Made by a program: the position numbers and the translations under genes. From the NCBI GenBank assembly GCA_905147135.1, contig LR990039.1:31121708-31185707 (forward strand): a stretch of DNA of 64,000 bases, written 5' to 3'. How positions within the stretch are numbered: the stretch's first letter is position 1; each line of letters starts with the position of its first letter. The DNA comes from Blastobasis lacticolella (lineage: Eukaryota > Arthropoda > Insecta > Lepidoptera > Blastobasidae). This document shows positions 546-26,700 of this stretch, in pieces. The notes below the pieces were generated by a model. That model was not told the origin of the DNA and ran no database searches. It worked only from the letters and a program-made list of their open reading frames with translations.

Positions 546-2806
546 ATGGACAAATTCAACAAGATAATACACGAAGGTGGTCTATATGACTTTAGAGTAA
601 TAAAGGAAATGGGTGAAAGGCACCGAAAATGGCATAAGATGAGTTGGAGAGAGAGAGAGTTACTCCTATTACATATACACTTGTGCATACTCATGTGCAA
701 CAAAGAGCTGATGGCTAAGAAGAGAAAAAGAGAGGAGAGCAAGAAGATCGAATATGACAGACCCGGACCAAGTAAAGTCAGCCGGTCAGAGACCCAAACT
801 GCTGAAGGGCCTTTTACAAAAGAAGAGGGGCAAGACGACAACCAATCAACATCAGGGGCAACCAGTTCCTACGAATCAGACTGGTCAAGAGAGGAGGATT
901 TGCTCATAGAACTTACTGCCATGGAATCAAATAAAGATTATAGGTTCAGTATGTTAAACTATATGCCCTTGGTTGAGATAACGACAAATCATGTGTCCCA
1001 AGAATGGAAGATAGAGTCCCCGACCAAGATTTGGGATATAGTGGATAAGAAAAATAAAAAATTCATAATGATAAGATATGCAGGAAACAAGAATAGAGCA
1101 TTAGAGAGATATTACCGAGCGAGAGCGGAAGTTCCTGACAACTGTGGCTTATATCTAATAAGGTGGGAAGACACAGAAGGGGAATGGGTGGATCTACCCA
1201 ACATGCATGCCAAAGGAGAAGAAAAGGTAAGGAGATTTCTGTTGAAAAGGAAGATAGTGTTGGAATCTATGGGGATCAACACAGAGTTCTTTAAATTAGA
1301 AGAAGGAAGAATACAAGATCTCTTTCCAAGCCCATGGATAGATTCATGTGTTGATAAATGGATGGAGGATCTTCTGAAGGACCAATTTGAACAGTGGTCA
1401 ATGGAGGAATTGTATGTGAAAGAGCAGGCACCTAAAACCATAACTGCTAAAGCCCTTTTAGAAAATTTAGACAAGCTCAAAGAAAGTAAAGACAGATGTG
1501 AAAGGTTATTTTATAAGGGGAAAATAATCCCAGAACATTTCGTACAAAACATACATATTGAAGAAAGAGAAGATTCTTCATGCATCGACAGAGTAGTAAG
1601 TTGTTTGAAGGAACAACTAGAGAGTCTTCAGGAGATAAGAGAAGATAACGTGCATGAAGGAGCAATTTGCACTCAGATATATTGCCCAATTTGTTGAAAG
1701 CCTGGGATAGCTCAAGTAAATCTATCTTTAATTTTATAAATAATATGAATTGCCCAGGACATAAGAGGATCGAATCTGCCCTGGGAATAGGAGTGAAAAA
1801 GAGGACATATAAGGACAATACAAAAGATATGAAACAACCAGAGAGTGTAGGAATAAGGAAATGCAGATACCCAGAGTGGTATGAAGAAGTTGTATGTGGA
1901 CTTGAGGAAAAACATGACATGTATCTGACCCACATTCCTATGAGTGATTTGATGAACACACCTCCCACAGACAATCACCCAATTGCTATAATTGTAGAGA
2001 ATTCAGTATCAGATATGACTGAAATGATACTACAGTCTAAGGCAGCGCTGATGACATCTAAAATGATAAACTTGTATTCAAGGTTGGGTGGGGCTTATGG
2101 CCATAGGGTCACTGAGACAAACAAAGACAAGAGAAATATAGCTATCTTCCCAATAATATCTCATGTCTCTAAATGATGGTGAAAACTCAAAGAGCAGTGA
2201 ACGCCTCAGGTTGTGTTCTGGATTTGTGGTCCGTGCACCATCACACACTAGGAAACCTACGGATAGGGTTGGGCTCATCACTGTAGAAATTATGAAGAGA
2301 ACGGATGTCTCTGAAGCGTTTTGCTCTGAGTTAAAAGGAACTCTTGTTTATGTATGTAAGAATATTTTGATAGTTGTCAGACAGAACTCAGTGATGAAAG
2401 AAGACAGTGCTTATAACACTTTTGTGTCCAACATAGAGTTGTACCGATAAACATGCTGGGGAGCATGACATTAGAAAATCCTGATGTGTCTCAATCTGAA
2501 AACATGATTGGATATATAGCAGATATTACTAGTAGAGGCCAAGATTGGTTTTTGAGCAGATATGTCGAAGGCCTTTGCTTTGCACTACTTGGCAACTCCA
2601 GGGATGAGGGATATTTTGCTCACATTCGAAAGCTATTCATGGTCATCTTCACATGGAGAATAGGCAAGTCTTCCGCAAGTTTCGATATCCCAAAGTTTTG
2701 TGAGAAAACCAATGAGTGCCTTCTGGACAATCCAGTTTCGATGCATTTCCATCTCACACTCTTGGATTTATTAGAATTGTACTGTGAGAAGCAAAGAAAA
2801 GCATAG
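546..2806 (+). pseudogene. Endogenous orthomyxovirus PA-like polymerase subunit, copy 1
   Basis: Four successive ORF segments (546-1697, 1667-2176, 2163-2450, 2453-2806) together span about 750 codons, the size of an orthomyxoviral PA. The N-terminal ~250 residues resemble the PA endonuclease fold region (HLCILMC near residue 45; KIWDIVDKKNKKFIMIRY near 161-178). The C-terminal part has stretches matching conserved PA positions: GFVVRAPSHTRKPTD, DEGYFAHIRKLF and EKTNECLLDNPV. PA is the subunit that, with PB1 and PB2, forms the viral RNA polymerase. It is broken: a private 1-nt deletion near 1,655 changes frame, and two further frame changes near 2,165 and 2,450 are shared with every other copy. 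Copy 1 lacks the in-frame TAG and TGA found in the others, so it is in part the best preserved. No poly(A) tail follows. Recognition is by motif and length, not by a search. Confidence 0.78.
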
Positions 2807-3772
2807 GTTTTGCACTTGTCATTCTTGAAGTTTTATTTTATTGAGAAAAATAACAGTTAAAAGAAGCGTATGTTAAAAACATTTTGCGTATCGTAAGATA
2901 GTCTCCTTATAAAGTTTCCATCCGTTTTGGCTCTAATTCAGACTCGACCAATTTTGGTAAAATTGGTAAAAACTAATTTATCTGGGATCTAAGCCTGTAT
3001 CCGAACACAAATTATCAATCTAGGATAATTTATGAACGTTTTGACATATAATAAGTCTGTGTAAAATGTGTGGCGATTAAGTTTGTCCAGTTTCAAATCC
3101 ATGAAAATTTTCCCCAGTTTTTCACGCAAATCGGCCGACACGTGCCGTCGATATAACGAATTGAAAAATATTAAAAGTGTTTTTGAAGTGATAAGGTGAG
3201 AAATTTCTGTTATTTATTATATTGTTCACACATAACAACAACTACATTTAAAAATTGTAAGGATAAAACTCGTTTTGGACCGTTCAGATTTAGGAAATAT
3301 TTACGCTCTAAACATGCTGCATGATTATAAAGTAATATTGTGTGTATATTTTAGTTCAATAATAATATTGGTTTTGTATGAAATAATGTAACATTTGCTC
3401 ATTTATCTCATAGTAACGTAACCAAGGCGATCCATATTCAGCCGCCATTACATTTTCCGCGGTATTTTCGTTTATCTGTGGCAAAAACGTATCCCAGAAT
3501 AGGCGAATTTCATGTAACACATGTCGATAATATTATCGATAAAATAAAAACCATTTTTTTTATGTCGATGATTTGAGATTTCGTTAGATAACTTGAAATT
3601 AGTTTTTCTTAGCGTGTATTGTTTATAAGAATTGTAATATTCTTGAGTTTATTCTGGAAAAAATTATTGACCTTGAATAACGAGTTTTCGATGATAATAG
3701 CAATATTTAGGTATTATCATCTTACACACTATTAGGTACACAAGCTTATAAAATTTCTATTATTTTTGCCAG
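2807..3772 (+). promoter_or_regulatory. Spacer with probable non-coding exon, 5' intron and CGATA palindrome upstream of the piggyBac gene
   Basis: No coding sequence is seen. The first ~390 bases probably contain the transposase promoter and 5' UTR. A donor-like AAG|GTGAG lies at 3,195/3,196 (a full GTGAGT in copies 2-4 where present, GTGAGA in copy 1), and an acceptor TTTTTGCCAG ends at 3,772, exactly before the ATG at 3,773. That defines a ~577-bp 5'-UTR intron. Within it, 3,524-3,539 is a perfect palindrome, TCGATAATATTATCGA, with two divergent CGATA motifs of the type bound by insect DREF/BEAF-like factors. The same spacer recurs at 8,600-10,443 (with an insertion) and 19,809-20,768. No clear TATA/Inr was identified. 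Confidence 0.45.
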
Positions 3773-5739
3773 ATGGCTGCTTGGAATGTGGGTGACGGCG
3801 CCATCACAGACGAAATTCTGGAAGCCCTCAACGACGAGGATGATTTTGAGGAGTCTGGGTCGGAGCCGCCACTCTATTCAGAGGACGAGGATGAGGTATG
3901 ATAGCCTCACCTACCTACTTATATAGTTTTATGTGACAGAAATACAAAATTTTCTTTGTTCGAAAAGAAATTATTGAAATAATTTGTTTCCACAGGACTG
4001 AACAAAACTGGAATATTATTACGATAAGTAGAAAAATATTATAAAGGTGGAGGATTGACTATGGGGAGATTGTTGAATTTGGCCTTGATTGTTTTTTTTG
4101 TTGATTGATTTCTGGTTACCTGTGTGTTTAAGCTTTTTATGTGTGGTGGTGGTCACTGATAGACTTTTAGAGCAGCATCTTCATGCATATTTATGTCAAT
4201 CGCCTAAATTGTTGTATGTGTTTTATTACGATTTCATGTTGTTTTACATGTAGTGATTCTCATCGGTAATGCTCCGCTTGGGTTTCGTTTTAGAACAGAC
4301 AATATGCTAACATATTTGTTTTTCATAGGATGATTGGGAGCTTCCGATTTCCTTTCCGATATTCGAAAGGATATTGGAAGATATAATCGTGCCCGTGCGC
4401 CCGTACGCCTCGCAGCCGTAAGTAAAAATAGTTATTGAATATTATTATAAATTTCAGTAATTTGTTAGTGAATTTTTTTTATTTCTTACAGTGAACATAA
4501 CATCGTCATATTTGACGATGCCGGACGCGAGCTGATTGCTCCGGAGGACGACGCCCAGCCCGATGATCCGTAAGTAATACACGATTTTTGCAATTTACTA
4601 ATATTATAAAGAGGTAATATTTGTATGTTTGTGAGTTTTAGAGTTTGTATGTTGGGGGTAAACTCCGAAACTACTGAACCGGATTTAAAAATTCTTTTAA
4701 ACAACATTATTCCTGAGTGAGTGACGTAGGCTAATTTTTATTTCAGGAAAATAATAAGATCTCAAGATAGTTGATAGTTTACAAAAATACGAACTGCGGG
4801 CGGCTGAAAACAGCGGGGGACTGCTAGTACATTTGAAATGTTTTCTTGCAGGGAAGAAGGGCAGTTCATGGACCCTGATGCCCATGAACTGTTCGTACCG
4901 GTGGCTGCACCTGCGCAGACAATGAGGCGGGGGTCAGTGGGGCAGCGGAGGGGGCTCGGGGTCGGCGTCCTCGCCGAGGCGGTCGGGACGGACGGGCACG
5001 AGGTCGGGTGAGTGGGAGGGGTGGAATAGGTGCGCATGCTGGAATAGCTGGTGCAGACGCCACCCGATGGCAGCGAGGTGACCGATTGCGTGAGGTATGC
5101 CTATCTGACGATGACGTGCCAGAAGAATTGAGGCGATTGGTAATGAATGTCATGGATGGAAGGCGTGCTAGGGAAAGGAATGCCACTAGGAGACAGAATG
5201 CATGACGGGTGGCTATGGAAGAGGATGGAAATGATGCAGAGTTCCTTGATGCCGTTGAAGGCGAGGACCAATTTGCAGGGGAGTTTAACTGGCGCCCCAT
5301 GGAGTTCTTCGAAGGGCAAAGGGAGGTTTTTGTGCCCGATCAAACTGGTCCTCTCCTCAACCTAACCAATCCCTATGATGCCTTTCGTTCCTTCTGGGAC
5401 GATGGTATCCTGTCTCATGTGGTGGAGGAAACTAATCGATATGCCCACCAAATTGGTGAGCGGTCGGCTAGTTTCCTTCAGCAATTGTACGATACCAACG
5501 TCTTATATCATTATAAGACCGTCAAACGTCTTTAGCTCGTCTCGGCTAACTGGCCGGAATCATTGGGTATACCTCAATCAGCTGCAGGAGGACCTTCCCG
5601 GAATAAACGCTTGACATGTATGTGGTGCTCTAAACGGTACCGTACCAGAAGTATTACTTCCTGGCGATGTGAGACATGTGATGTAGCCCTTTGTGTACCG
5701 GACTGTTTTAAGATTCGGCTATTACTGAATGAACATTAA
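3773..5739 (+). pseudogene. piggyBac transposase gene, copy 1, with catalytic core deleted
   Basis: Exons read 3,773-3,895 (41 codons, MAAWNVGDGAITDE start, acidic), 4,329-4,417, 4,492-4,569, then from 4,852. Each intron has GT..AG ends, and phases fit through exon 4's start. Exon 4 meets a TGA at 5,009. A second in-frame TGA lies at 5,203, just before the transposase core (RSFWDDGILSHVVEETNRYA at ~5,387). Relative to copy 3, about 1,072 bp is missing at ~5,503: the sequence jumps from the start of the core (DTNV) to the C-terminus, so all three catalytic aspartates are gone. An 8-bp deletion also removes TTGCTCAC near 5,566. The C-terminal Cys-rich segment (CMWCSKRYR...) persists to the TAA at 5,737-5,739. 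Non-functional. Confidence 0.85.
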
Positions 5740-5912
5740 AACGTATGACATGTTTATTTTGCTCCAATTTTCTGTAACATTTACCATACCTATCTAACCA
5801 AAATCCATACGTCATCGTGTCCCTGTCAAGTGCGGATGTGTTTTGACTTTATAAATTTATATTTAATAGAAATATTTAAAAGTTTGTGCTATAGTCACAG
5901 AGTAATGTTAGT
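5740..5912. other. Inter-unit junction, copy 1 to copy 2
   Basis: About 170 bp between the transposase stop and the next LINE-like ATG; identical junctions lie at 16,903-17,065 and 23,814-23,986. I looked for a piggyBac end (TTAA next to a CCC-type terminal repeat) here and in the spacer upstream of the gene and saw none, so the unit does not look bounded by intact piggyBac termini. Confidence 0.6.
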
Positions 5913-6390
5913 ATGGATGAAATACGTTCTGATAATGATGGTAATAATAGTTTAAGTGAAAATGTGCTTAGTGACGGAGATGTGCTTTTAAATTGTGGAC
6001 AAGCCTTTCCAAGCAGCCGGTCTGTTAGTAGCACAAATATGCGTAAAAGAAAGTTTGGACAGATCGCAAAACGAGGATGATGAATTTTCTAGTGATGGGT
6101 ACGAGACTGTAGTTAATAAATAGAAAAGTAAGAAGCTGAAAAAGCGTGCGAATATTGATACAAGGCCATTTGACAACTCATCTGACAAAGAGTCGCCATT
6201 ACTTTCAAAGGTGTCAAGAAATGTCATGGTGGAGCCATCGAAAAATATGCTGACAAGCGATATTGACAATTCCGCATAAGAGATTTATTACGAGGTTAGT
6301 GTGTTCTCTACGAAAGAGTTGCCGAAACCTATGGCATTCGCTCGACTTTTAAAATCAAGTATCAACAGATCCTTATTACAAAAAATATAA
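5913..6390 (+). pseudogene. LINE ORF1-like N-terminal fragment, copy 2
   Basis: Same fragment as at 64-545, joined in the same way to the PA-like ATG at 6,391 (TAA immediately before ATG). This copy carries a private AAA-to-TAG nonsense change in the lysine-rich stretch near 6,121, besides the frame change shared with the other copies. Confidence 0.5.
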
Positions 6391-8599
6391 ATGGACAAAT
6401 TCAACAAGATAATACACGAAGGTGGTCTATATGACTTTAGAGTAATAAAGGAAATGGGTGAAAGGCACCGAAAATGGCATAAGATGAGTTGGAGAGAGAG
6501 AGAGTTACTCCTATTACATATACACTTGTGCATACTCATGTGCAACAAAGAGCTGATGGCTAAGAAGAGAAAAAGAAAGGAGAGCAAGAAGATCGAATAT
6601 GACAGACCCGGACCAAGTAAAGTCAGCCGGTCAGAGACCCAAACTGCTGAAGGGCCTTTTACAAAAGAAGAGGGGCAAGACGACAACCAATCAACATCAG
6701 GGGCAACCAGTTCCTACGAATCAGACTGGTCAAGAGAGGAGGATTTGCTCATAGAACTTACTGCCATGGAATCAAATAAAGATTATAGGTTCAGTATGTT
6801 AAACTATATGCCCTTGGTTGAGATAACGACAAATCATGTGTCCCAAGAATGGAAGATAGAGTCCCCGACCAAGATTTGGGATATAGTGGATAAGAAAAAT
6901 AAAAAATTCATAATGATAAGATATGCAGGAAACAAGAATAGAGCATTAGAGAGATATTACCAAGCGAGAGCGGAAGTTCCTGACAACTGTGGCTTATATC
7001 TAATAAGGTGGGAAGACACAAAAGGGGAATGGGTGGATCTACCCAACATGCATGCCAAAGGAGAAGAAAAGGTAAGGAGATTTCTGTTGAAAAGGAAGAT
7101 AGTGTTGGAATCTATGGGGATCAACACAGAGTTCTTTAAATTAGAAGAAGGAAGAATACAAGGTCTCTTTCCAAGCCCATGGATAGATTCATGTGTTGAT
7201 AAATGGATGGAGGATCTTCTGAAGGACCAATTTGAACAGTGGTCAATGGAGGAATTGTATGTGAAAGAGCAGGCACCTAAAACCATAACTGCTAAAGCCC
7301 TTTTAGAAAATTTAGACAAGCTCAAAGAAAGTAAAGACAGATGTGAAAGGTTATTTTATAAGGGAAAAATAATCCCAGAACATTTCGTACAAAACATACA
7401 TATTGAAGAAAGAGAAGATTCTTCATGCATCGACAGAGTAGTAAGTTGTTTGAAGGAACAACTAGAGAGTCTTTAGGACATAAGAGAAGAGAACATGCAT
7501 GACAGGAGCAATTTGCACTCAGATATATTGCCCAATTTGTTGAAGTCCTGGGCAGAGGATCGAATCTGCCCTGGGAATAGGAGAGAAAAAGAGGACATAT
7601 AAGGACTATACAAAAGATATGAAACAACCAGAGAGTGTAGGAATAAGGAAATGCAGATACCCAGAGTGGTATGAAGAAGTTGTATGTGGACTTGAGGAAA
7701 AACATGACATGTATCTGACCCACATTGAGTGATTGAGTGATTTGATGAACACACCTCCCACAGACAATCACCCAATTGCTATAATTGTAGAGAATTCAGT
7801 ATCAGATATGACTGAAATGATACTACAGTCTAAGGCAGCGCTGATGACATCTAAAATGATAAACTTGTATTCAAGGTTGGGTGGGGCTTATGGCCATAGG
7901 GTCACTGAGACAAACAAAGACAAGAGAAATATAGCTATCTTCCCAATAATATCTCATGTCTCTAAATGATGGTGAAAACTCAAAGAGCAGTGAACGCCTC
8001 AGGTTGTGTTCTGGATTTGTGGTCCGTGCACCATCACACACTAGGAAACCTACGGATAGGGTTGGGCTCATCACTGTAGAAATTATGAAGAGAACGGATG
8101 TCTCTGAAGCGTTTTGCTCTGAGTTAAAAGGAACTCTTGTTTATGTATGTAAGAATATTTTGATAGTTGTCAGACAGAACTCAGTGATGAAAGAAGACAG
8201 TGCTTATAACACTTTTGTGTCCAACATAGAGTTGTACCGATAAACATGCTGGGGAGCATGACATTAGAAAATCCTGATGTGTCTCAATCTGAAAACATGA
8301 TTGGATATATAGCAGATATTACTAGTAGGGGCCAAGATTGGTTTTTAAGCAGATATGTCGAAGGCCTTTGCTTTGCACTACTTGGCAACTCCAGGGATGA
8401 GGGATATTTTGCTCACATTCGAAAGCAATTCATGGTCATCTTCACATGGAGAATAGGCAAGTCTTCCGCAAGTTTCGATATCCCAAAGTTTTGTGAGAAA
8501 ACCAATGAGTGCCTTCTGGACAATCCAGTTTCGATGCATTTCCATCTCACACTCTTGGATTTATTAGAATTGTACTGTGAGAAGCAAAGAAAAGCATAG
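6391..8599 (+). pseudogene. Endogenous orthomyxovirus PA-like polymerase subunit, copy 2
   Basis: The first segment, 6,391-7,476, reads 361 residues nearly identical to copy 1 and stops at an in-frame TAG (after ESL) that copies 3 and 4 share but copy 1 does not. A private deletion of about 66 bp sits near 7,545-7,556. A TGA at ~7,730 (after the motif THIE) comes from a small difference in copies 2-4. Later segments are 7,733-7,969, 7,956-8,243 and 8,246-8,599, with the two frame changes common to all copies. Family motifs are as in copy 1, including GYFAHIRKQF and EKTNECLLDNPV near the C-terminus. It cannot make a full-length protein as it stands. Confidence 0.78.
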
Positions 8600-9045
8600 G
8601 TTTTGCACTTGTCATTCTTGAAGTTTTATTTTGTTGAGAAAAATAACAGTTAAAAGAAGCGTATGTTAAAAACATTTTGCGTATCGTAAGATAGTCTCCT
8701 TATAAAGTTTCCATCCGTTTTGGCTCTAATTCAGACTCGACCAATTTTGGTAAAATTGGTAAAATCTAATTTATCCGGGATCTAAGCCTGTATCCGAACA
8801 CAAATTATCAATCTAGGATAATTTATGAACGTTTTGACATATAATAAGTCTGTGTAAAATGTGTGGCGATTAAGTTTGTCCAGTTTCAAATCCATGAAAA
8901 TTTTCCCCAGTTTTTCACGCAAATCGGCCGACACGTGCCGTCGATATAACGAATTGAAAAATGTTAAAAGTGTTTTTTGAAGTGATAAGGTGAGTAATTT
9001 CTGTTATATATTATATTGTTCACACATAACAACAACTACATTTAA

Positions 9046-9918
9046 CCCTAGAGTGCTCGCGCTATGAGCATTTTGCCGCCTGCGACAAAAAAATCCTGTT
9101 ATATTTAAAACGAAGCGTTTGTCAAGGTTAAGTGTCCTGGTAGCTGCCCCCCCGGACCTCACCTCCTTATTTTAGAAATTAGAATAAATTCAGCGCGGGG
9201 GTTACCGCAGTAGGCAACGGTTGTAGTCTGTATGAGGCGTTTGGCGGCATTTTGCTCACTGCGCGACTACTCACGTAAGTAAAATTCGTGTATCTAGTTT
9301 TTTACTGTTGTTGAAATATTATTAGTTTTCAATGTGTATAATATTGTTTTGATGTAAATATCATAATAATATTGATATTTAGTTTGTTTTGATTAATTAT
9401 AGGGCGTTTTGCTAATGAGCTGGTTGCTAACTACCGAACAACTATAGTGGGCACTTTGCGAAAAAACAAAAAAGAAATCCCACCTTGCTTTCTAACTACC
9501 AAAGATAGAGTTCAGACGAGTACAATGTTTGGATTTGGTGAGAAGAAGGTTCTAATATCCTATGTGCCTAATAAAAAGCAAAAAAGGTGGTTCTGTTATT
9601 ATCAACTTTACACGATGATAATAAGATTGATGAAATAAAGTTTCATTTTTCTTTTTTTTATGTTGATTAATATATCAAGATGATGAAACAATTAAAAAAA
9701 AATACCAAAGATTTCCCAAAGCATTTTTATGTAATACTAAATACAAAAGGTTAATAAATATTACTTTTTCTGCTAGTTTATGTTTCATTCTATCCTATTA
9801 AATCATTGTAAAATTTATTTACCTATTTTTTGCAAAAAAAAATCATTTTAAGTATGAGCGGCAAAATGCTCCCCACGCGATCACTTACGTTTCACGGAAA
9901 GGCGCGACTACTCTAGGG
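9046..9918. mobile_element. Short non-autonomous piggyBac-type element with TTAA target duplication
   Basis: The array sequence ACATTTAAAAATTG is split at its TTAA, which is duplicated at 9,042-9,045 and 9,919-9,922. The element begins CCCTAGAGTGCTCGCGC and ends with the inverted counterpart (CCCTAGAGTAGTCGCGC on the other strand). Sub-terminal GAGCATTTTGCCGC is also inverted at both ends. TTAA duplication plus CCC-starting ends is the hallmark of the piggyBac superfamily. These termini belong to a family different from the array's own transposase as far as I can tell. The other copies lack the insertion, so it arose after the array formed. Confidence 0.92.
9405..9638 (+). pseudogene. piggyBac transposase remnant inside the short element
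   Basis: One open frame reads ANELVANYRTTIVGTLRKNK, then KKEIPPCFLTTKD and FGFGEKKVLISYVPNKKQ. This is the stretch of piggyBac transposases just after the second catalytic aspartate (VGTxRKNKKEIP...SYVPKK). About 75 residues remain of a ~550-600-residue protein, so the element is an internal-deletion derivative that would need transposase in trans. The frame is preceded by an acceptor-like TTATAG. Confidence 0.75.
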
Positions 9919-10443
9919 TTAAAAATTGTAAGGATAAAACTCGTTTTGGACCGTTCAGATTTAGGAAATATTTACGCTCTAAACATGCTGCATGATTATA
10001 AAGTAATATTGTGTGTATATTTTAGTTCAATAATAATATTGGTTTTGTATGAAATAATGTAACATTTGCTCATTTATCTCATAGTAACGTAACCAAGGCG
10101 ATCCATATTCAGCCGCCATTACATTTTCCGCGGTATTTTCGTTTATCTGTGGCAAAAACGTATCCCAGAATAGGCGAATTTCATGTAACACATGTCGATA
10201 ATATTATCGATAAAATAAAAACCATTTTTTTTATGTCGATGATTTGAGATTTCGTTAGATAACTTGAAATTAGTTTTTCTTAGCGTGTATTGTTTATAAG
10301 AATTGTAATATTCTTGAGTTTATTCTGGAAAAAATTATTGACCTTGAATAACGAGTTTTCGATGATAATAGCAATATTTAGGTATTATCATCTTACACAC
10401 TATTAGGTACACAAGCTTATAAAATTTCTATTATTTTTGCCAG

Positions 10444-13400
10444 ATGGCTGCTTGGAATGTGGGTGACGGCGCCATCACAGACGAAATTCTGGAAGCCCTC
10501 AACGACGAGGATGATTTTGAGGAGTCTGGGTCGGAGCCGCCACTCTATTCAGAGGACGAGGATGAGGTATGATAGCCTCACCTACCTACTTATATAGTTT
10601 TATGTGACAGAAATACAAAATTTTCTTTGTTCGAAAAGAAATTATTGAAATAATTTGTTTCCACAGGACTGAACAAAACTGGAATATTATTACGATAAGT
10701 AGAAAAATATTATAAAGGTGGAGGATTGACTATGGGGAGATTGTTGAATTTGGCCTTGATTGTTTTTTTTGTTGATTGATTTCTGGTTACCTGTGTGTTT
10801 AAGCTTTTTATGTGTGGTGGTGGTCACTGATAGACTTTTAGAGCAGCATCTTCATGCATATTTATGTCAATCGCCTAAATTGTTGTATGTGTTTTATTAC
10901 GATTTCATGTTGTTTTACATGTAGTAATTCTCATCGGTAATGCTCCGCTTGGGTTTCGTTTTAGAACGTTTTTTCGTAGAGATTGGGAGCTTCCGATGTC
11001 CTTTCCGATATTCGAAAGGATATTGGAAGATATAATCGTGCCCGTGCGCCCGTACGCCTCGCAGCCGTAAGTAAAAATAGTTATTGAATATTATTATAAA
11101 TTTCAGTAATTTGTTAGTGAATTTTTTTTATTTCTTACAGTGAACATAACATCGTCATATTTGACGATGCCGGACGCGAGCTGATTGCTACGGAGGACGA
11201 CGCCCAGCCCGATGATCCGTAAGTAATACACGATTTTTGCAATTTACTAATATTATAAAGAGGTAATATTTGTATGTTTGTGAGTTTTAGAGTTTGTATG
11301 TTGGGGGTAAACTCCGAAACTACTGAACCGGATTTAAAAATTCTTTTACTATAGGGAACAACATTATTCCTGAGTGAGTGACGTAGGCTAATTTTTATTT
11401 CAGGAAAATAATAAGATCTCAAGATAGTTGATAGTTTACAAAAATACGAACTGCGGGCGGCTGAAAACAGCGGGGGACTGCTAGTACATTTGAAATGTTT
11501 TCTTGCAGGGAAGAAGGGCAGTTCATGGACCCTGATGCCCATGAACTGTTCGTATCGGTGGCTGCACCTGCGCAGCCAATGAGGCGGGGGTCAGTGGGGC
11601 AGCGGAGGGGGCTCGGGGTCGGCGTCCTCGCCGAGGCGGTCGGGACGGACGGGCACGAGGTCGGGTGAGTGGGAGGGGTGGAATAGGTGCGCATGCTGGA
11701 ATAGCTGGTGCAGACGCCACCCGATGGCAGCGAGGTGACCGATTGCGTGAGGTATGCCTATCTGACGATGACGTGCCAGAAGAATTGAGGCGATTGGTAA
11801 TGAATGTCATGGATGGAAGGCGTGCTAGGGAAAGGAATGCCACTAGGAGACAGAATGCATGACGGGTGGCTATGGAAGAGGATGGAAATGATGCAGAGTT
11901 CCTTGTTGCCGTTGAAGGCGAGGACCAATTTGCAGGGGAGTTTAACTGGCGCCCCATGGAGTTCTTCGAAGGGCAAAGGGAGGCTTTTGTGCCCGATCAA
12001 ACTGGTCCTCTCCTCAACCTAACCAATCCCTATGATGCCTTTCGTTCCTTCTGGGACGATGGTATCCTGTCTCATGTGGTGGAGGAAACTAATCGATATG
12101 CCCACCAAATTGGTGAGCGGTCGGCTAGTTTCCTTCAGCAATGGTACGATACCAACGTCTCAGAAATTCTAATCCTGTTCTCCTTTTATATGATGTTAGG
12201 TATCGTTAAGATGCCTAGCATCAATTCCTGTTTCACACTTAATCCTCTTCTCAAAACAGAGGTATTCCGGACGATGTTCACACAAAAGCGTTTCTGGAAT
12301 TTGCACAGAGCGCTTCATTTCGTAGACAACACCACGCGCACTCCGCAATCTGATGGACTATTTTGTTTCGGCCCCATACTTGGCCACCTAAACGCAAAAT
12401 TTAAGGAAAACTATGTACCACAGCAAAACGTTAGCATCGACGAATCTCTGACCTTATGGAAAGGGGTTCTGTCGTTCAAACAATACATAAAATCGAAGGC
12501 GGCCAAGTTCGGTATTAAAACATTTGAACTCTGCGAATCGGCAACAGGGTGGGTATCTATGGTCATTTTTTGTCTTCACGGGGAAAAACAGTGAAGGTGA
12601 CTCCACTATGCCTGTGAGTACTCAAACAGTCTTAAGACTGATATCCCCGCTTCTAAATAAAGGCTATACGTTATTCATGGACAATTGGTTCAATTCTCCT
12701 GCACTCGCGCGATATTTAAAAGCTAATAGAACGGATTGCGTTGGGACGCTGAGATCATCGCGACAAGGGGTGCCGACATTAGTTTCTTTGGCTAAATTGC
12801 GGGAAGGTAAATATTTGGCGCGTAATTCGGGGGATGTAACTGTGTTGGCATTTCAGGACAAAAAGAAAATAGTTGGCATATCAACATACCATGGCTCTGA
12901 ACTCGGGCAGACTGTGACGAAACCTCGTAAGCCGTCTGTATGGAAGCCTCAACTGGTCCTTGATTATAACATCGGTATGGGAGGGGTAGACCGAAAGGAC
13001 CAAATGCTCGAACCCTATGAACTGGAGAGGAAGCGCTGTGCAAAATGGTATATGAAGTTGTTCAAGCGTCTCTTGAACGCTTCTATCCTAAATGTACGAA
13101 TAGTGCATGATGCTTCGCGGCGGCGACTTGACTACCCTGATGACCGACAGATGGACCACGTAGTATTTCGCCTCAACCTTATCCAACATATTCTGGAAAA
13201 GCATCTTGCCTTAGTCCCTGCTTCAAACCGGAATATCATTATAAGACCGTCAAACGTCTTTAGCTTGTCTCGGCTAACTGGCCGGAATCATTGGGTTGCT
13301 CACATACCTCAATCAGCTGCAGGAGGACCTTCCCGGAATAAACGCTTGACATGTATGTGGTGCTCTAAACGGTACCGTACCAGAAGTATTACTTCCTGGC

Positions 13401-13474
13401 GATGTGAGACATGTGATGTAGCCCTTTGTGTACCGGACTGTTTTAAGATTCGGCTATTACTGAATGAACATTAA
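10444..13474 (+). pseudogene. piggyBac transposase gene, copy 2 (catalytic residues present, frameshifted)
   Basis: Exons 10,444-10,566, 10,980-11,066 and 11,141-11,218, then from 11,509. Exon 2's upstream region is replaced (CGTTTTTTCGTAG), making the exon 87 instead of 89 nt and shifting the frame. The core reads in two frames, 11,866-12,594 and ~12,570-13,474. The first holds DDE residue 1 (NVSIDESLTLWKG). The second holds residue 2 (LFMDNWFNSPAL) and residue 3 (YNIGMGGVDRKDQM), then a C-terminal cysteine-rich domain (CMWCSKRYR...CETCDVALCVPDC) that in the family binds terminal repeats. The change of frame falls at a run of six T at 12,567-12,573, one T too many, and copy 3 has it too. A TGA lies just before the core frame. 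The LINE at ~13,495 follows its stop by 20 bp. Confidence 0.88.
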
Positions 13475-13790: not shown

Positions 13791-13794
13791 TCCT

Positions 13795-16704: not shown

Positions 16705-17065
16705 TTGTAAAAGTAATTTAAATATAGGATAGAAAATAGTTTATACAGATAAATTATGATTATGCTAATAGAATGTCGGTGAAGGTATCTATGCAGTAGG
16801 TGTGTATTTAACCAGTGGTGAGTTTTTATGTAAGAGATGTGTAGTGTATAGTGTGCAGACAAATAATAGGAACGTGCTTCAAAAATGTTTATTGAATTAT
16901 AAATGTTTATTTTGCTCCAATTTTCTGTAACATTTACCATACCTATCTAACCAAAATCCATACGTCATCGTGTCCCTGTCAAGTGCGGATGTGTTTTGAC
17001 TTTATAAATTTATATTTAATATAAATATTTAAAAGTTTGTGCTATAGTCACAGAGTAATGTTAGT

Positions 17066-17543
17066 ATGGATGAAATACGTTCTGATAATGATGGTAATAA
17101 TAGCTTAAGTGAAAATGTGCTTAGTGACGGAGATGTGCTTTTAAATTGTGGACAAGCCTTTCCAAGCAACCGGTCTGTTAGTAGCACAAATATGCGTAAA
17201 AGAAAGTTTGGACAGATCGCAAAACGAGGATGATGAATTTTCTAGTGATGGGTATGAGACTGTAGTTAATCAAAAGAAAAGTAAGAAGCTGAAAAAGCGT
17301 GCGAATATTGATACAAGGCCATTTGACAACTCATCTGACAAAGAGTCGCCATTACTTTCAAAGGTGTCAAGAAATGTCATGGTGGAGCCATCGAAAAATA
17401 TGCTGACAAGCGATATTGACAATTCCGCATAAGAGATTTATTACGAGGTTAGTGTGTTCTCTACGAAAGAGTTGCCGAAACCTATGGCATTCGCTCGACT
17501 TTTAAAATCAAGTATCAACAGATCCTTATTACAAAAAATATAA
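17066..17543 (+). pseudogene. LINE ORF1-like N-terminal fragment, copy 3
   Basis: Same structure as copy 1. Here the second frame (17,148-17,432) ends at TAA 17,430-17,432, and the same frame then continues (YYEVSVFSTKELPKPMAF) to TAA 17,541-17,543, directly before the PA-like ATG at 17,544. The fragment and the PA start therefore share one frame, separated only by that stop. Confidence 0.5.
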
Positions 17544-19808
17544 ATGGACAAATTCAACAAGATAATACACGAAGGTGGTCTATATGACTTTAGAGTAATA
17601 AAGGAAATGGGTGAAAGGCACCGAAAATGGCATAAGATGAGTTGGAGAGAGAGAGAGTTACTCCTATTACATATACACTTGTGCATACTCATGTGCAACA
17701 AAGAGCTGATGGCTAAGAAGAGAAAAAGAGAGGAGAGCAAGAAGATCGAATATGACAGACCCGGACCAAGTAAAGTCAGCCGGTCAGAGACCCAAACTGC
17801 TGAAGGGCCTTTTACAAAAGAAGAGGGGCAAGACGACAACCAATCAACATCAGGGGCAACCAGTTCCTACGAATCAGACTGGTCAAGAGAGGAGGATTTG
17901 CTCATAGAACTTACTGCCATGGAATCAAATAAAGATTATAGGTTCAGTATGTTAAACTATATGCCCTTGGTTGAGATAACGACAAATCATGTGTCCCAAG
18001 AATGGAAGATAGAGTCCCCGACCAAGATTTGGGATATAGTGGATAAGAAAAATAAAAAATTCATAATGATAAGATATGCAGGAAACAAGAATAGAGCATT
18101 AGAGAGATATTACCAAGCGAGAGCGGAAGTTCCTGACAACTGTGGCTTATATCTAATAAGGTGGGAAGACACAAAAGGGGAATGGGTGGATCTACCCAAC
18201 ATGCATGCCAAAGGAGAAGAAAAGGTAAGGAGATTTCTGTTGAAAAGGAAGATAGTGTTGGAATCTATGGGGATCAACACAGAGTTCTTTAAATTAGAAG
18301 AAGGAAGAATACAAGGTCTCTTTCCAAGCCCATGGATAGATTCATGTGTTGATAAATGGATGGAGGATCTTCTGAAGGACCAATTTGAACAGTGGTCAAT
18401 GGAGGAATTGTATGTGAAAGAGCAGGCACCTAAAACCATAACTGCTAAAGCCCTTTTAGAAAATTTAGACAAGCTCAAAGAAAGTAAAGACAGATGTGAA
18501 AGGTTATTTTATAAGGGAAAAATAATCCCAGAACATTTCGTACAAAACATACATATTGAAGAAAGAGAAGATTCTTCATGCATCGACAGAGTAGTAAGTT
18601 GTTTGAAGGAACAACTAGAGAGTCTTTAGGACATAAGAGAAGAGAACATGCATGACAGGAGCAATTTGCACTCAGATATATTGCCCAATTTGTTAAAAGC
18701 CTGGGATAGCTCAAGTAAATCTACCTTTAATTTTATAAATAATATGAATTGCCCAGGACATAAGAGGATCGAATCTGCCCTGGGAATAGGAGAGAAAAAG
18801 AGGACATATAAGGACTATACAAAAGATATGAAACAACCAGAGAGTGTAGGAATAAGGAAATGCAGATACCCAGAGTGGTATGAAGAAGTTGTATGTGGAC
18901 TTGAGGAAAAACATGACATGTATCTGACCCACATTGAGTGATTGAGTGATTTGATAAACACACCTCCCACAGACAATCACCCAATTGCTATAATTGTAGA
19001 GAATTCAGTATCAGATATGACAAAAATGATACTACAGTCTAAGGCAGCGCTGATGATATCTAAAATGATAAACTTGTATTCAAGGTTGGGTGGGGCTTAT
19101 GGCCATAGGGTCACTGAGACAAACAAAGACAAGAGAAATATAGCTATCTTCCCAATAATATCTCATGTCTCTAAATGATGGTGAAAACTCAAAGAGCAGT
19201 GAACGCCTCAGGTTGTGTTCTGGATTTGTGGTCCGTGCACCATCACACGCTAGGAAACCTACGGATAGGGTTGGGCTCATCACTGTAGAAATTATGAAGA
19301 GAACGGATGTCTCTGAAGCGTTTTGCTCTGAGTTAAAAGGAACTCTTGTTTATGTATGTAAGAACATTTTGATAGTTGTCAGACAGAACTCAGTGATGAA
19401 AGAAGACAGTGCTTATAACACTTTTGTGTCCAACATAGAGTTGTACCGATAAACATGCTGGGGAGCATGACATTAGAAAATCCTGATGTGTCTCAATCTG
19501 AAAACATGATTGGATATATAGCAGATATTACTAGTAGGGGCCAAGATTGGTTTTTGAGCAGATATGTCGAAGGCCTTTGCTTTGCACTACTTGGCAACTC
19601 CAGGGATGAGGGATATTTTGCTCACATTCGAAAGCTATTCATGGTCATCTTCACATGGAGAATAGGCAAGTCTTCCACAAGTTTCGATATCCCAAAGTTT
19701 TGTGAGAAAACCAATGAGTGCCTTCTGGACAATCCAGTTTCGATGCATTTCCATCTCACACTCTTGGATTTATTAGAATTGTACTGTGAGAAGCAAAGAA
19801 AAGCATAG
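17544..19808 (+). pseudogene. Endogenous orthomyxovirus PA-like polymerase subunit, copy 3 (least rearranged)
   Basis: Frame 17,544-18,629 (361 residues) ends in TAG; the same frame continues at 18,648-18,941 to a TGA (GAGTGATTGAGTGAT region), and again to 19,178. Then a +1 shift (19,165-19,452) and a -1 shift (19,455-19,808) follow. Total span ~2.27 kb, the expected size for PA. Key motifs: HLCILMC near residue 45, KFIMIRYAGNKNRALERYY near 172-190, GFVVRAPSHARKPTD, and GYFAHIRKLF with EKTNECLLDNPV near the C-terminus. By-eye comparison places Thr160 and Met175 where active influenza-type endonucleases have acidic metal ligands. All breaks are described, none inferred to be functional. Confidence 0.8.
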
Positions 19809-20768
19809 GTTTTGCACTTGTCATTCTTGAAGTTTTATTTTGTTGAGAAAAATAACAGTTAAAAGAAGCGTATGTTAAAAACATTTTGCGTATCGTAAGA
19901 TAGTCTCCTTATAAAGTTTCCATCCGTTTTGGCTCTAATTCAGACTCGACCAATTTTGGTAAAATTGGTAAAATCTAATTTATCCGGGATCTAAGCCTGT
20001 ATCCGAACACAAATTATCAATCTAGGATAATTTATGAACGTTTTGACATATAATAAGTCTGTGTAAAATGTGTGGCGATTAAGTTTGTCCAGTTTCAAAT
20101 CCATGAAAATTTTCCCCAGTTTTTCACGCAAATCGGCCGACACGTGCCGTCGATATAACGAATTGAAAAATATTAAAAGTGTTTTTTGAAGTGATAAGGT
20201 GAGTAATTTCTGTTATTTATTATATTGTTTACACATAACAACAACTACATTTAAAAATTGTAAGGATAAAACTCGTTTTGGACCGTTCAGATTTAGGAAA
20301 TATTTACGCTCTAAACATGCTGCATGATTATAAAGTAATATTGTGTGTATATTTTAGTTCAATAATAATATTGGTTTTGTATGAAATAATGTAACATTTG
20401 CTCATTTATCTCATAGTAACGTAACCAAGGCGATCCATATTCAGCCGCCATTACATTTTCCGCGGTATTTTCGTTTATCTGTGGCAAAAACGTATCCCAG
20501 AATAGGCGAATTTCATGTAACACATGTCGATAATATTATCGATAAAATAAAAACCATTTTTTTTATGTCGATGATTTGAGATTTCGTTAGATAACTTGAA
20601 ATGAGTTTTTCTTAGAATTTATAAGAATTGTAATATTCTTGAGTTTATTCTGGAAAAAATTATTGACCTTGAATAACGAGTTTTCGAAGATAATAGCAAT
20701 ATTTAGGTATTATCATCTTACACACTATTAGGTACACAAGCTTATAAAATTTCTATTATTTTTGCCAG
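19809..20768 (+). other. PA-piggyBac spacer, copy 3
   Basis: Homologue of 2,807-3,772 with the intact donor AAG|GTGAGT near 20,198 and acceptor TTGCCAG at 20,768. The palindrome TCGATAATATTATCGA is near 20,527. A small private deletion is present near 20,615. No coding sequence seen. Confidence 0.7.
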
Positions 20769-23700
20769 ATGGCTGCTTGGAATGTGGGTGACGGCGCCAT
20801 CACAGACGAAATTCTGGAAGCCCTCAACGACGAGGATGATTTTGAGGAGTCTGGGTCGGAGCCGCCACTCTATTCAGAGGACGAGGATGAGGTATGATAG
20901 CCTCACCTACCTACTTATATAGTTTTATGTGACAGAAATACAAAATTTTCTTTGTTCGAAAAGAAATTATTGAAATAATTTGTTTCCACAGGACTGAACA
21001 AAACTGGAATATTATTACGATAAGTAGAAAAATATTATAAAGGTGGAGGATTGACTATGGGGAGATTGTTGAATTTGGCCTTGATTGTTTTTTTTGTTGA
21101 TTGATTTCTGGTTACCTGTGTGTTTAAGCTTTTTATGTGTGGTGGTGGTCACTGATAGACTTTTAGAGCAGCATCTTCATGCATATTTATGTCAATCGCC
21201 TAAATTGTTGTATGTGTTTTATTACGATTTCATGTTGTTTTACATGTAGTGATTCTCATCGGTAATGCTCCGCTTGGGTTTCGTTTTAGAACAGACAATA
21301 TGCTAACATATTTGTTTTTCATAGGATGATTGGGAGCTTCCGATGTCCTTTCCGATATTCGAAAGGATATTGGAAGATATAATCGTGCCCGTGCGCCCGT
21401 ACGCCTCGCAGCCGTAAGTAAAAATAGTTATTGAATATTATTATAAATTTCAGTAATTTGTTAGTGAATTTTTTTTATTTCTTACAGTGAACATAACATC
21501 GTCATATTTGACGATGCCGGACGCGAGCTGATTGCTCCGGAGGACGACGCCCAGCCCGATGATCCGTAAGTAATACACGATTTTTGCAATTTACTAATAT
21601 TATAAAGAGGTAATATTTGTATGTTTGTGAGTTTTAGAGTTTGTATGTTGGGGGTAAACTCCGAAACTACTGAACCGGATTTAAAAATTCTTTTAAACAA
21701 CATTATTCCTGAGTGAGTGACGTAGGCTAATTTTTATTTCAGGAAAATAATAAGATCTCAAGATAGTTGATAGTTTACAAAAATACGAACTGCGGGCGGC
21801 TGAAAACAGCGGGGGACTGCTAGTACATTTGAAATGTTTTCTTGCAGGGAAGAAGGGCAGTTCATGGACCCTGATGCCCATGAACTGTTCGTACCGGTGG
21901 CTGCACCTGCGCAGCCAATGAGGCGGGGGTCAGTGGGGCAGCGGAGGGGGCTCGGGGTCGGCGTCCTCGCCGAGGCGGTCGGGACGGACGGGCACGAGGT
22001 CGGGTGAGTGGGAGGGGTGGAATAGGTGCGCATGCTGGAATAGCTGGTGCAGACGCCACCCGATGGCAGCGAGGTGACCGATTGCGTGAGGTATGCCTAT
22101 CTGACGATGACGTGCCAGAAGAATTGAGGCGATTGGTAATGAATGTCATGGATGGAAGGCGTGCTAGGGAAAGGAATGCCACTAGGAGACAGAATGCATG
22201 ACGGGTGGCTATGGAAGAGGATGGAAATGATGCAGAGTTCCTTGATGCCGTTGAAGGCGAGGACCAATTTGCAGGGGAGTTTAACTGGCGCCCCATGGAG
22301 TTCTTCGAAGGGCAAAGGGAGGTTTTTGTGCCCGATCAAACTGGTCCTCTCCTCAACCTAACCAATCCCTATGATGCCTTTCGTTCCTTCTGGGACGATG
22401 GTATCCTGTCTCATGTGGTGGAGGAAACTAATCGATATGCCCACCAAATTGGTGAGCGGTCGGCTAGTTTCCTTCAGCAATGGTACGATACCAACGTCTC
22501 AGAAATTCTAATCCTGTTCTCCTTTTATATGATGTTAGGTATCGTTAAGATGCCTAGCATCAATTCCTGTTTCACACTTAATCCTCTTCTCAAAACAGAG
22601 GTATTCCGGACGATGTTCACACAAAAGCGTTTCTGGAATTTGCACAGAGCGCTTCATTTCGTAGACAACACCACGCGCACTCCGCAATCTGATGGACTAT
22701 TTTGTTTCGGCCCCATACTTGGCCACCTAAACGCAAAATTTAAGGAAAACTATGTACCACAGCAAAACGTTAGCATCGACGAATCTCTGACCTTATGGAA
22801 AGGGGTTCTGTCGTTCAAACAATACATAAAATCGAAGGCGGCCAAGTTCGGTATTAAAACATTTGAACTCTGCGAATCGGCAACAGGGTGGGTATCTATG
22901 GTCATTTTTTGTCTTCACGGGGAAAAACAGTGAAGGTGACTCCACTATGCCTGTGAGTACTCAAACAGTCTTAAGACTGATATCCCCGCTTCTAAATAAA
23001 GGCTATACGTTATTCATGGACAATTGGTTCAATTCTCCTGCACTCGCGCGATATTTAAAAGCTAATAGAACGGATTGCGTTGGGACGCTGAGATCATCGC
23101 GACAAGGGGTGCCGACATTAGTTTCTTTGGCTAAATTGCGGGAAGGTGAATATTTGGCGCGTAATTCGGGGGATGTAACTGTGTTGGCATTTCAGGACAA
23201 AAAGAAAATAGTTGGCATATCAACATACCATGGCTCTGAACTCGGGCAGACTGTGACGAAACCTCGTAAGCCGTCTGTATGGAAGCCTCAACTGGTCCTT
23301 GATTATAACATCGGTATGGGAGGGGTAGACCGAAAGGACCAAATGCTCGAACCCTATGAACTGGAGAGGAAGCGCTGTGCAAAATGGTATATGAAGTTGT
23401 TCAAGCGTCTCTTGAACGCTTCTATCCTAAATGTACGAATAGTGCATGATGCTTCGCGGCGGCGACTTGACTACCCTGATGACCGACAGATGGACCACGT
23501 AGTATTTCGCCTCAACCTTATCCAACATATTCTGGAAAAGCATCTTGCCTTAGTCCCTGCTTCAAACCGGAATATCATTATAAGACCGTCAAACGTCTTT
23601 AGCTCGTCTCGGCTAACTGGCCGGAATCATTGGGTTGCTCACATACCTCAATCAGCTGCAGGAGGACCTTCCCGGAATAAACGCTTGACATGTTTGTGGT

Positions 23701-23813
23701 GCTCTAAACGGTACCGTACCAGAAGTATTACTTCCTGGCGATGTAAGACATGTGATGTAGCCCTTTGTGTACCGGACTGTTTTAAGATTCGGCTATTACT
23801 GAATGAACATTAA
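20769..23813 (+). pseudogene. piggyBac transposase gene, copy 3 (best preserved)
   Basis: Exons 20,769-20,891 (phase 0), 21,325-21,413, 21,488-21,565, then from 21,848, all with canonical GT..AG. The N-terminus is strongly acidic (DEDDFEESGSEPP; YSEDEDE), as usual for piggyBac proteins. The reading path is broken around 22,005 (TGA) and by TGA at ~22,199, then open from 22,205. The transposase core in 22,205-22,933 carries Asp192 of that ORF (SIDESLTLWKG). After a T6-run frameshift near 22,907, the frame 22,863-23,813 carries LFMDNWFNSPAL (Asp53), GMGGVDRKDQM (Asp156) and the Cys-rich end. All three catalytic aspartates survive. Introns plus absence of recognisable terminal repeats leave open whether this was a transposon or a piggyBac-derived host gene before decay. 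Confidence 0.88.
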
Positions 23814-23986
23814 AACGTATGACATGTTTATTTTGCTCCAATTTTCTGTAACATTTACCATACCTATCTAACCAAAATCCATACGTCATCGTGTCCCTGT
23901 CAAGTGCGGATGTGTTTTGACTTTATAAATTTATATTTAATATAAATATTTAAAAGTTTGTGCTATAGTCACAGAGTAATGTTAGT

Positions 23987-24464
23987 ATGGATGAAATACG
24001 TTCTGATAATGATGGTAATAATAGCTTAAGTGAAAATGTGCTTAGTGACGGAGATGTGCTTTTAAATTGTGGACAAGCCTTTCCAAGCAGCCGGTCTGTT
24101 AGTAGCACAAATATGCGTAAAAGAAAGTTTGGACAGATCGCAAAACGAGGATGATGAATTTTCTAGTGATGGGTATGAGACTGTAGTTAATAAAAAGAAA
24201 AGTAAGAAGCTGAAAAAGCGTGCGAATATTGATACAAGGCCATTTGACAACTCATCTGACAAAGAGTCGCCATTACTTTCAAAGGTGTCAAGAAATGTCA
24301 TGGTGGAGCCATCGAAAAATATGCTGACAAGCGATATTGACAATTCCGCATAAGAGATTTATTACGAGGTTAGTGTGTTCTCTACGAAAGAGTTGCCGAA
24401 ACCTATGGCATTCGCTCGACTTTTAAAATCAAGTATCAACAGATCCTTATTACAAAAAATATAA
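23987..24464 (+). pseudogene. LINE ORF1-like N-terminal fragment, copy 4
   Basis: Same as in copies 1-3. The second frame (24,069-24,353) is open to the shared TAA, and the fragment ends immediately before the PA-like ATG at 24,465. Confidence 0.5.
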
Positions 24465-26700
24465 ATGGACAAATTCAACAAGATAATACACGAAGGTGGT
24501 CTATATGACTTTAGAGTAATAAAGGAAATGGGTGAAAGGCACCGAAAATGGCATAAGATGAGTTGGAGAGAGAGAGAGAGTTACTCCTATTACATATACA
24601 CTTGTGCATACTCATGTGCAACAAAGAGCTGATGGCTAAGAAGAGAAAAAGAGAGGAGAGCAAGAAGATCGAATATGACGGACCCGGACCAAGTAAAGTC
24701 AGCCGGTCAGAGACCCAAACTGCTGAAGGGCCTTTTACAAAAGAAGAGGGGCAAGACGACAACCAATCAACATCAGGGGCAACCAGTTCCTACGAATCAG
24801 ACTGGTCAAGAGAGGAGGATTTGCTCATAGAACTTACTGCCATGGAATCAAATAAAGATTATAGGTTCAGTATGTTAAACTATATGCCCTTGGTTGAGAT
24901 AACGACAAATCATGTGTCCCAAGAATGGAAGATAGAGTCCCCGACCAAGATATGGGATATAGTGGATAAGAAAAATAAAAAATTCATAATGATAAGATAT
25001 GCAGGAAACAAGAATAGAGCATTAGAGAGATATTACCAAGCGAGAGCGGAAGTTCCTGACAACTGTGGCTTATATCTAATAAGGTGGGAAGACACAAAAG
25101 GGGAATGGGTGGATCTACCCAACATGCATGCCAAAGGAGAAGAAAAGGTAAGGAGATTTCTGTTGAAAAGGAAGATAGTGTTGGAATCTATGGGGATCAA
25201 CACAGAGTTCTTTAAATTAGAAGAAGGAAGAATACAAGGTCTCTTTCCAAGCCCATGGATAGATTCATGTGTTGATAAATGGATGGAGGATCTTCTGAAG
25301 GACCAATTTGAACAGTGGTCAATGGAGGAATTGTATGTGAAAGAGCAGGCACCTAAAACCATAACTGCTAAAGCCCTTTTAGAAAATTTAGACAAGCTCA
25401 AAGAAAGTAAAGACAGATGTGAAAGGTTATTTTATAAGGGAAAAATAATCCCAGAACATTTCGTACAAAACATACATATTGAAGAAAGAGAAGATTCTTC
25501 ATGCATCGACAGAGTAGTAAGTTGTTTGAAGGAACAACTAGAGAGTCTTTAGGACATAAGAGAAGAGAACATGCATGACAGGAGCAATTTGCACTCAGAT
25601 ATATTGCCCAATTTGTTAAAAGCCTGGGATAGCTCAAGTAAATCTACCTTTAATTTTATAAATAATATGAATTGCCCAGGACATAAGAGGATCGAATCTG
25701 CCCTGGGAATAGGAGAGAAAAAGAGGACATATAAGGACTATACAAAAGATATGAAACAACCAGAGAGTGTAGGAATAAGGAAATGCAGATACCCAGAGTG
25801 GTATGAAGAAGTTGTATGTGGACTTGAGGAAAAACATGACATGTATCTGACCCACATTGAGTGATTGAGTGATTTGATGAACACACCTCCCACAGACAAT
25901 CACCCAATTGCTATAATTGTAGAGAATTCAGTATCAGATATGACAAAAATGATACTACAGTCTAAGGCAGCGCTGATGATATCTAAAATGATAAACTTGT
26001 ATTCAAGGTTGGGTGGGGCTTATGGCCATAGGGTCACTGAGACAAACAAAGACAAGAGAAATATAGCTATCTTCCCAATAATATCTCATGTCTCTAAATG
26101 ATGGTGAAAACTCAAAGAGCAGTGAACGCCTCAGGTTGTGTTCTGGATTTGTGGTCCGTGCTCCGGGCTCATCACTGTAGAAATTATGAAGAGAACGGAT
26201 GTCTCTGAAGCGTTTTGCTCTGAGTTAAAAGGAACTCTTGTTTATGTATGTAAGAACATTTTGATAGTTGTCAGACAGAACTCAGTGATGAAAGAAGACA
26301 GTGCTTATAACACTTTTGTGTCCAACATAGAGTTGTACCGATAAACATGCTGGGGAGCATGACATTAGAAAATCCTGATGTGTCTCAATCTGAAAACATG
26401 ATTGGATATATAGCAGATATTACTAGTAGGGGCCAAGATTGGTTTTTGAGCAGATATGTTGAAGGCCTTTGCTTTGCACTACTTGGCAACTCCAGGGATG
26501 AGGGATATTTTGCTCACATTCGAAAGCTATTCATGGTCATCTTCACATGGAGAATAGGCAAGTCTTCCGCAAGTTTCGATATCCCAAAGTTTTGTGAGAA
26601 AACCAATGAGTGCCTTCTGGACAATCCAGTTTCGATGCATTTCCATCTCACACTCTTGGATTTATTAGAATTGTACTGTGAGAAGCAAAGAAAAGCATAG
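24465..26700 (+). pseudogene. Endogenous orthomyxovirus PA-like polymerase subunit, copy 4
   Basis: The ATG frame from 24,465 is thrown out by one extra GA unit in a (GA)n run near 24,567-24,580; the remaining N-terminal part reads from 24,563 to the shared TAG at 25,552. Segments 25,571-25,864 and 25,865-26,101 follow in frame behind the shared TGA. A private ~38-bp deletion near 26,160 removes the region that reads RAPSH in the other copies. The last segment, 26,347-26,700, is full length. The 3' end and ~150 bp beyond it match the other copies until 26,850. Confidence 0.78.

Follow-up and report, generated by a model that had tools for sequence, protein, structure and literature searches.

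How did a moth chromosome come to carry a row of near-identical sequences that resemble the polymerase gene PA of orthomyxoviruses, and what has become of them since? The question is raised by a window of 64,000 nucleotides on a 35.4-Mb contig (C30) of the Blastobasis lacticolella assembly (577 Mb, 45 contigs), the window being the whole stretch that was analysed (G000:C30:31121708-31185707). Most probably, and with little doubt on our part, these sequences are endogenous viral elements, i.e., copies of the PA segment of insect orthomyxoviruses, one of which was amplified in tandem together with a piggyBac transposon while further copies derive from other viral lineages.

Identity of the PA-like segments

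A sequence-only reading had described four near-identical segments of about 2.2 kb in the window, each of the size of PA, and this description holds. The same ATG opens all four, at 546, 6391, 17544 and 24465, with a common 18-base 5' start (ATGGACAAATTC...), and pairwise comparison of the copies gave 6-25 substitutions per 2178-2261 aligned sites (0.27-1.12%). The conserved-looking stretches singled out in that reading were also recovered, as the coding DNA of DEGYFAHIR and of EKTNECLLDNPV is found in all four copies; the peptide GFVVRAPSHTRKPTD can be read letter for letter from copy 1, and SHARKPTD stands at that place in copy 3. Chance resemblance of the window copies is excluded.

The proposed check against Pfam Flu_PA (curated cut-off 23 bits) was significant. 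The C-terminal piece of copy 1 (2453-2803) matched at 2e-6 (26.8 bits, profile positions 621-685), and the corresponding piece of copy 2 was barely above the cut-off. A relative elsewhere on the contig, L017, which is 74% alike to the N-terminal piece of the window copies, extends the match: its middle and C-terminal part aligned to profile positions 367-505 (6.5e-7, 28.4 bits) and its N-terminal part, weakly and below the cut-off, to 69-145 (0.0092, 14.6 bits). The order of Flu_PA matches along the N-terminal part of L017, its middle and the C-terminal end of the window copies is therefore correct, with the N-terminal match being weak. A profile built from the C-terminal piece, L017 and three metagenomic relatives (A1) was searched against PDB up to an E value of 1. 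Orthomyxovirus polymerase chains made up 27 of its 30 rows, including the first six, and the other three were designed proteins (0.059-0.56). The best rows were 5d98 (5e-6) and 6kuj (0.0019), which we take to be influenza C and D. A further profile, A4, reached 2.6e-5.

Protein relatives were searched in a set of 5.8 billion sequences under a length rule that excluded full-length PAs for the pieces used. The N-terminal piece had one relative (67% identity) and the C-terminal piece three (52-78%), none of them named; all carry the source code lgn, which we take to denote assembled public reads. No relative of the C-terminal piece was found among IMG/VR viral contigs at the search sensitivity used. 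Structure prediction gave a mean predicted local distance difference test score (pLDDT) of 35 for the N-terminal piece, which is unusable, and of 40 for the middle and C-terminal piece of L017.

Several results count against the assignment to PA. The N-terminal piece alone had no Pfam match, its profile had no PDB match, and as a single sequence its sole PDB row was a lectin (0.33). The pieces 1658-2173 and 2157-2447 were likewise without a Pfam match. An endonuclease-region profile to which the diverged copy L018 was added (A3) gave a less clear picture: its best PDB row was a lectin (0.017), and PA endonuclease chains accounted for 4 of 11 rows, only at E values of 0.42-0.44. In the sole PA alignment displayed for A3, an acidic residue, presumably catalytic, is aligned with a methionine in this group. 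The search retrieved no PA of a named virus, partly because its length rule barred full-length PAs, and it is hence no proof that named PAs are absent. In the genome-wide Flu_PA search only one of eight scored candidates passed 1e-3, namely a copy immediately to the left of the window; in none of the 14 control genomes was the threshold passed. From the Flu_PA and PDB matches of the C-terminal piece, we nevertheless identify the window segments as orthomyxovirus PA.

The PA copies lie in a host chromosome, as the sequence-only reading had proposed: the contig is 35.4 Mb long, the flanks hold transposons, and long interspersed nuclear element (LINE) and piggyBac insertions are found within the array. 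None of the copies is intact. Premature stops and frame changes interrupt all four, and each consists of 4-5 open pieces of at least 75 codons in two or three frames. Some breaks are common to several window copies and others private to one. Since several copies have the same breaks, decay started before amplification. No whole PA product is predicted from any window copy; if these copies have any effect, it would most likely be as templates for small RNAs directed at kin viruses.

The tandem array

The first 26.9 kb of the window belong to a tandem array, whose unit boundaries there were placed by self-comparison. The array as a whole spans about 53 kb, starting 26.7 kb left of the window at about C30:31095044. 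The left part is also interspersed with unrelated sequence and contains three more PA copies, of which two are cut at a point corresponding to about window position 1702-1705 and one has an internal loss. The array thus comprises seven units with PA, of which four lie within the window and three, truncated or internally deleted, to its left. Four separate integrations in the window were considered and ruled out, as all four copies are units of one array. The four copies of the sequence-only reading are hence all PA, but they are tandem duplicates of one integration, and no copy works as a gene. Among the 300-base repeat blocks of the array, most are 98-100% identical; the lower values among the 20 families listed, 94% in two families and 68% in one, arise because copies of unequal length were compared without gaps.

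The coordinates of the units, their transposons and the other viral loci are collected in Table 1.

Table 1. Viral and transposon features of the window and related loci elsewhere in the genome. Plain coordinates are window positions; the extent of PA copy 1 is the viral-derived stretch from the common 5' end to the common 3' end.
Feature	Position	Strand	Remarks
PA copy 1	511..2860	+	ATG 546; Flu_PA match of 2453-2803 at 2e-6
PA copy 1, open pieces	546-1697, 1658-2176, 2157-2450, 2417-2806	+	two frames
PA copy 2, broken	6356..8653	+	ATG 6391; last piece ends 8599; Flu_PA 23.3 bits
PA copy 3, broken	17509..19862	+	ATG 17544; last piece ends 19808
PA copy 4, broken	24430..26754	+	ATG 24465; last piece ends 26700
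Array unit 1	1..5849	+	PA and piggyBac with internal deletion near 5503; self-comparison
Array unit 2	5850..17002	+	PA, long piggyBac reading, two later insertions; self-comparison
Array unit 3	17003..23923	+	6.9 kb; self-comparison
Array unit 4, cut off	23924..26854	+	right edge of array; homology to other units stops at 26854
piggyBac transposase remnant, unit 1	5206..5535	+	22.3 bits, slightly below the 22.4 cut-off
piggyBac-type transposase, unit 2	11866..13474	+	two overlapping pieces; DDE_Tnp_1_7, E 5.4e-43 and 1.5e-36
piggyBac-type transposase, unit 3	22205..23813	+	two pieces (open reading frames); assigned by near-identity to unit 2
LINE-type retrotransposon, unit 2	13495..16902	-	endonuclease and reverse transcriptase frame 13795-16704; RVT_1 6.8e-30
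Non-autonomous piggyBac-type element, unit 2	9046..9919		at TTAA, CCCTAGA-type inverted ends; flanks read by eye and from the gap in unit matches
PA locus L009/L017	C30:30968264 (L017:5246-7426)		DNA 71% alike to array
PA locus L018	C30:34.73 Mb (L018:4006-8164)		DNA match 65-74%; most diverged PA copy
PA piece on contig C8	C8:3611298 (L019:4799-5212)		0.4 kb, 97% alike to array
PB1-like element	L020:829-2469 (G000:C30:22221909-22222847 region)	-	546-codon open frame

The LINE in unit 2 has an open frame of 969 residues and a (TTTA)n tail, and overlapping flank matches suggest a target duplication of about 10 bases. Exact inverted repeats of at least 10 bases were not found between the two stretches examined around the piggyBac of the unit. 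The sequence that precedes PA in the units (window positions 1-510) holds short coding-like stretches; the pieces 49-228 and 143-418 there had no Pfam match. A hAT transposase remnant lies at 39247-39663 (Dimer_Tnp_hAT, 6e-10), and an Rfam scan of the window gave no match at gathering scores.

Other PA loci and the number of captures

A DNA search of the genome returned 12 matches in 10 scored candidates, comprising the four window copies, the three left array copies, of which one is split into two pieces, and three places elsewhere, of which one gave two rows. Two of these places, L017 at about 0.14 Mb from the array and L018, are on contig C30 with the array, and the third is the short piece on contig C8.

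L017 has 726 open codons, after which unrelated sequence takes the place of the last ~30 residues that are kept in the array and in the protein relatives P0002-P0004. Comparing the array with L017 over the pieces open in both, the differences at codon positions 1/2/3 were 70/50/212 in 361 codons, and 20/13/79 in 140, 17/7/49 in 80 and 19/6/45 in 83 codons for the further pieces. Silent sites are thus near saturation, while the proteins are still 71-82% alike. Dead copies cannot diverge in this way, and the skew towards third positions therefore means that the two diverged as working genes before integration. Most simply, the array and L017 lineages would have parted as exogenous viruses.

Compared with five array copies, the C8 piece shows eight coding differences that are fixed, six synonymous and two not. 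About 80% of random changes in this piece are expected to alter the protein or create a stop, and the binomial probability of two or fewer non-silent changes among eight is about 0.001 (calculated by hand). This suggests that the C8 piece was captured separately, from a strain nearly identical to that of the array, although eight changes are few. At the protein level, identity of L018 to the array and to L017 is 45-50% in two pieces, which suggests a third lineage that is older or more decayed. By eye, an apparent mariner transposase remnant interrupts this copy.

The ends of the insertions are informative as well. Homology among the array, L017 and L018 starts at the same place, some 30-35 bases ahead of the ATG, in agreement with a viral segment terminus, and the array and the C8 piece have a common 3' end. 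The C8 piece is bounded by a 7-base repeat, TAATCAT. Beyond PA, 10-kb stretches around L017 and L018 have nothing in common with the flanks of the array except scattered repeats.

Not all of these observations favour separate reverse-transcribed captures. The differences of L018 are less skewed to third positions and more even over the codon positions, and because of this weaker skew its separate origin rests on distance. The TAATCAT repeats partly overlap viral letters and may be microhomology, and no poly(A) tail was present at the 3' ends examined (array and C8). Taken together, PA appears to have been captured at least three times and probably four, from different viral lineages or strains, as the codon-position patterns show for L017 and as our comparisons suggest for L018 and C8. 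Where the sequence-only reading had proposed a single past infection, the diverged copies elsewhere in the genome point instead to three or more related viruses. Such a series of PA captures from distinct but related viruses would document that the germ line met one viral group repeatedly.

Mechanism and age

Orthomyxoviruses have no DNA stage, and reverse transcription by host retroelements is the usual route by which RNA viruses without DNA enter a genome. PA RNA may thus have been reverse-transcribed by host retrotransposon enzymes in germ cells. One PA copy lies beside a piggyBac transposon, and the pair was amplified in tandem, presumably by ordinary unequal exchange or by replication slippage within the repeats. 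The array can thus be seen as a viral fossil multiplied by tandem duplication beside a DNA transposon. With an insect substitution rate near 3e-9 per site per year, the 0.27-1.12% divergence of the window copies corresponds to an age of some 0.5 to 2 million years, as a rough figure. Concerning the ends, the relevant passage of Katzourakis and Gifford (2010; PMC2987831) reports that not one of the insect insertions had mammalian-like poly(A) tails and target duplications, a pattern in keeping with the ends of the present copies.

Competing explanations

It is unlikely, but deserves to be weighed, that the host maintains PA, with at least L017 under selection, e.g., because it would serve as a decoy subunit and jam related viruses, and with the array as a decayed or small-RNA-producing cousin. 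The 726-codon frame speaks for this. When possible nonsense changes are counted and 5-15 indels per 100 substitutions are assumed, the chance that the frame stays open falls below 5% beyond about 0.7-1.4% neutral divergence. However, recent integration accounts for an open frame as well, and L017 is without the C-terminal residues that its relatives have kept. L017 is accordingly either young or selected.

A related proposal, which we regard as doubtful, is that PA was repeatedly captured and then kept or amplified because truncated PA or PA small RNAs block kin viruses, so that the genome would hold a renewed PA-specific antiviral archive. If so, L017 would be its newest protein-coding member and the array its RNA-producing member, and at least three PA viral lineages would stand against the one PB1 element found. 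This genome is also a natural setting in which to ask whether hosts retain pieces of viral polymerases as a defence.

Very unlikely is a single ancient integration, after which the array, L017, L018 and the C8 piece diverged as host paralogues. The location of the first three on one contig, with L017 close to the array, speaks for such a history. However, near-saturated third positions need a working frame throughout, yet the copies of the array are defunct and those in the window differ by only 0.27-1.12%; coding constraint is visible in the C8 pattern too, and the flanks of L017 and L018 are unlike those of the array over the stretches compared. False repetition of a single PA locus during assembly is highly improbable: near-identical tandem units are a known assembly hazard, but the window copies differ by their substitutions and also by distinct insertions and deletions. 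That a transposon or host protein family merely resembles PA can be dismissed almost entirely, since, despite the transposon proteins present in the unit and the unmatched N-terminal piece, those proteins are separate open reading frames with their own matches, those PA pieces that have a Pfam match at all match only Flu_PA, without a better match to any host or transposon family, and the first six PDB rows of the C-terminal profile are all polymerase chains. Endogenous PA copies from several insect orthomyxoviruses, with one amplified in tandem, thus remain the explanation that we favour.

The PB1 element and virus affiliation

The likely source of the PA copies can be approached through another polymerase gene. 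A Flu_PB1 search of the genome scored one candidate and found one element. Its first 330 residues had 86 protein matches, the nearest named ones being Soybean thrips quaranja-like virus 3 (55% identity) and Wuhan Mosquito Virus 7 (50%), in both cases across 89% of the searched part. A quick tree was made from 41 rows, i.e., the query and 40 of the 86 matches chosen by hand, with support from the Shimodaira-Hasegawa-like approximate likelihood ratio test (SH-aLRT) only. The query, which is 46% filled and stretched over the alignment, falls among unnamed sequences in a 13-member group at 100%, in a tree rooted on an outgroup that does not hold together. Both nearest named viruses, Hubei orthomyxo-like virus 2 and sequences from Bactrocera and Ceratitis belong to the same group. 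By its place in this tree, the PB1-like element is assigned to the insect quaranja-like viruses, and the PA elements likely come from the same viruses. For PA itself, the quaranja-like affinity proposed in the sequence-only reading thus has indirect support only, by way of this PB1 element. A Pfam search of the genome for PB2 gave no match, and as the control genomes were equally silent, absence does not follow. Among the PB1-like proteins, P0039, P0029 and P0087 are annotated on long contigs that come from Chilo suppressalis, Gryllus longicercus and Cyamophila willieti, respectively, and are probably endogenous elements in those hosts.

Comparison with known systems

The sequence-only reading had held orthomyxovirus-like elements to be uncommon. 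They appear less rare than that, since Li et al. (2015; PMC4384744) report, in the part concerned, that quaranjavirus RNA-dependent RNA polymerase (RdRp) elements occur in a number of insects, Bombyx mori among them. Another example is the endogenous quaranjavirus-like PB1 of Campodea augens, present in seven fragments and described in the relevant passage as probably not functional (PMC6938034). As far as these accounts go, the B. lacticolella copies resemble the Campodea and Bombyx elements in being orthomyxovirus polymerase genes in arthropod chromosomes. However, those elements are PB1, whereas here PA was captured, amplified with a transposon, and apparently derived from several viral lineages in one genome. 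No title reporting an endogenous PA was among the matches listed in our literature searches, and the arthropod orthomyxovirus fossils named in the portions of the cited work drawn on here are PB1 (RdRp) and nucleoprotein.

Soybean thrips quaranja-like virus 3 and Wuhan Mosquito Virus 7 are linked to this genome through PB1 only. In the beetle Photinus pyralis, orthomyxovirus elements are likewise present (PMC6191289); the main text, in the section concerned, does not specify the integrated genes. According to that account kin viruses of the Photinus elements still circulate, whereas an exogenous partner is not known here. The quaranjavirus-like elements of ixodid ticks (PMC10675110) likewise comprise several independent lineages, in that case in related hosts, but those named in the relevant part are PB1 and nucleoprotein, in contrast to the PA found here. 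Collectively, orthomyxovirus-derived elements are already known from arthropods, and the repeated capture of PA together with its tandem amplification adds a notable new example to them.

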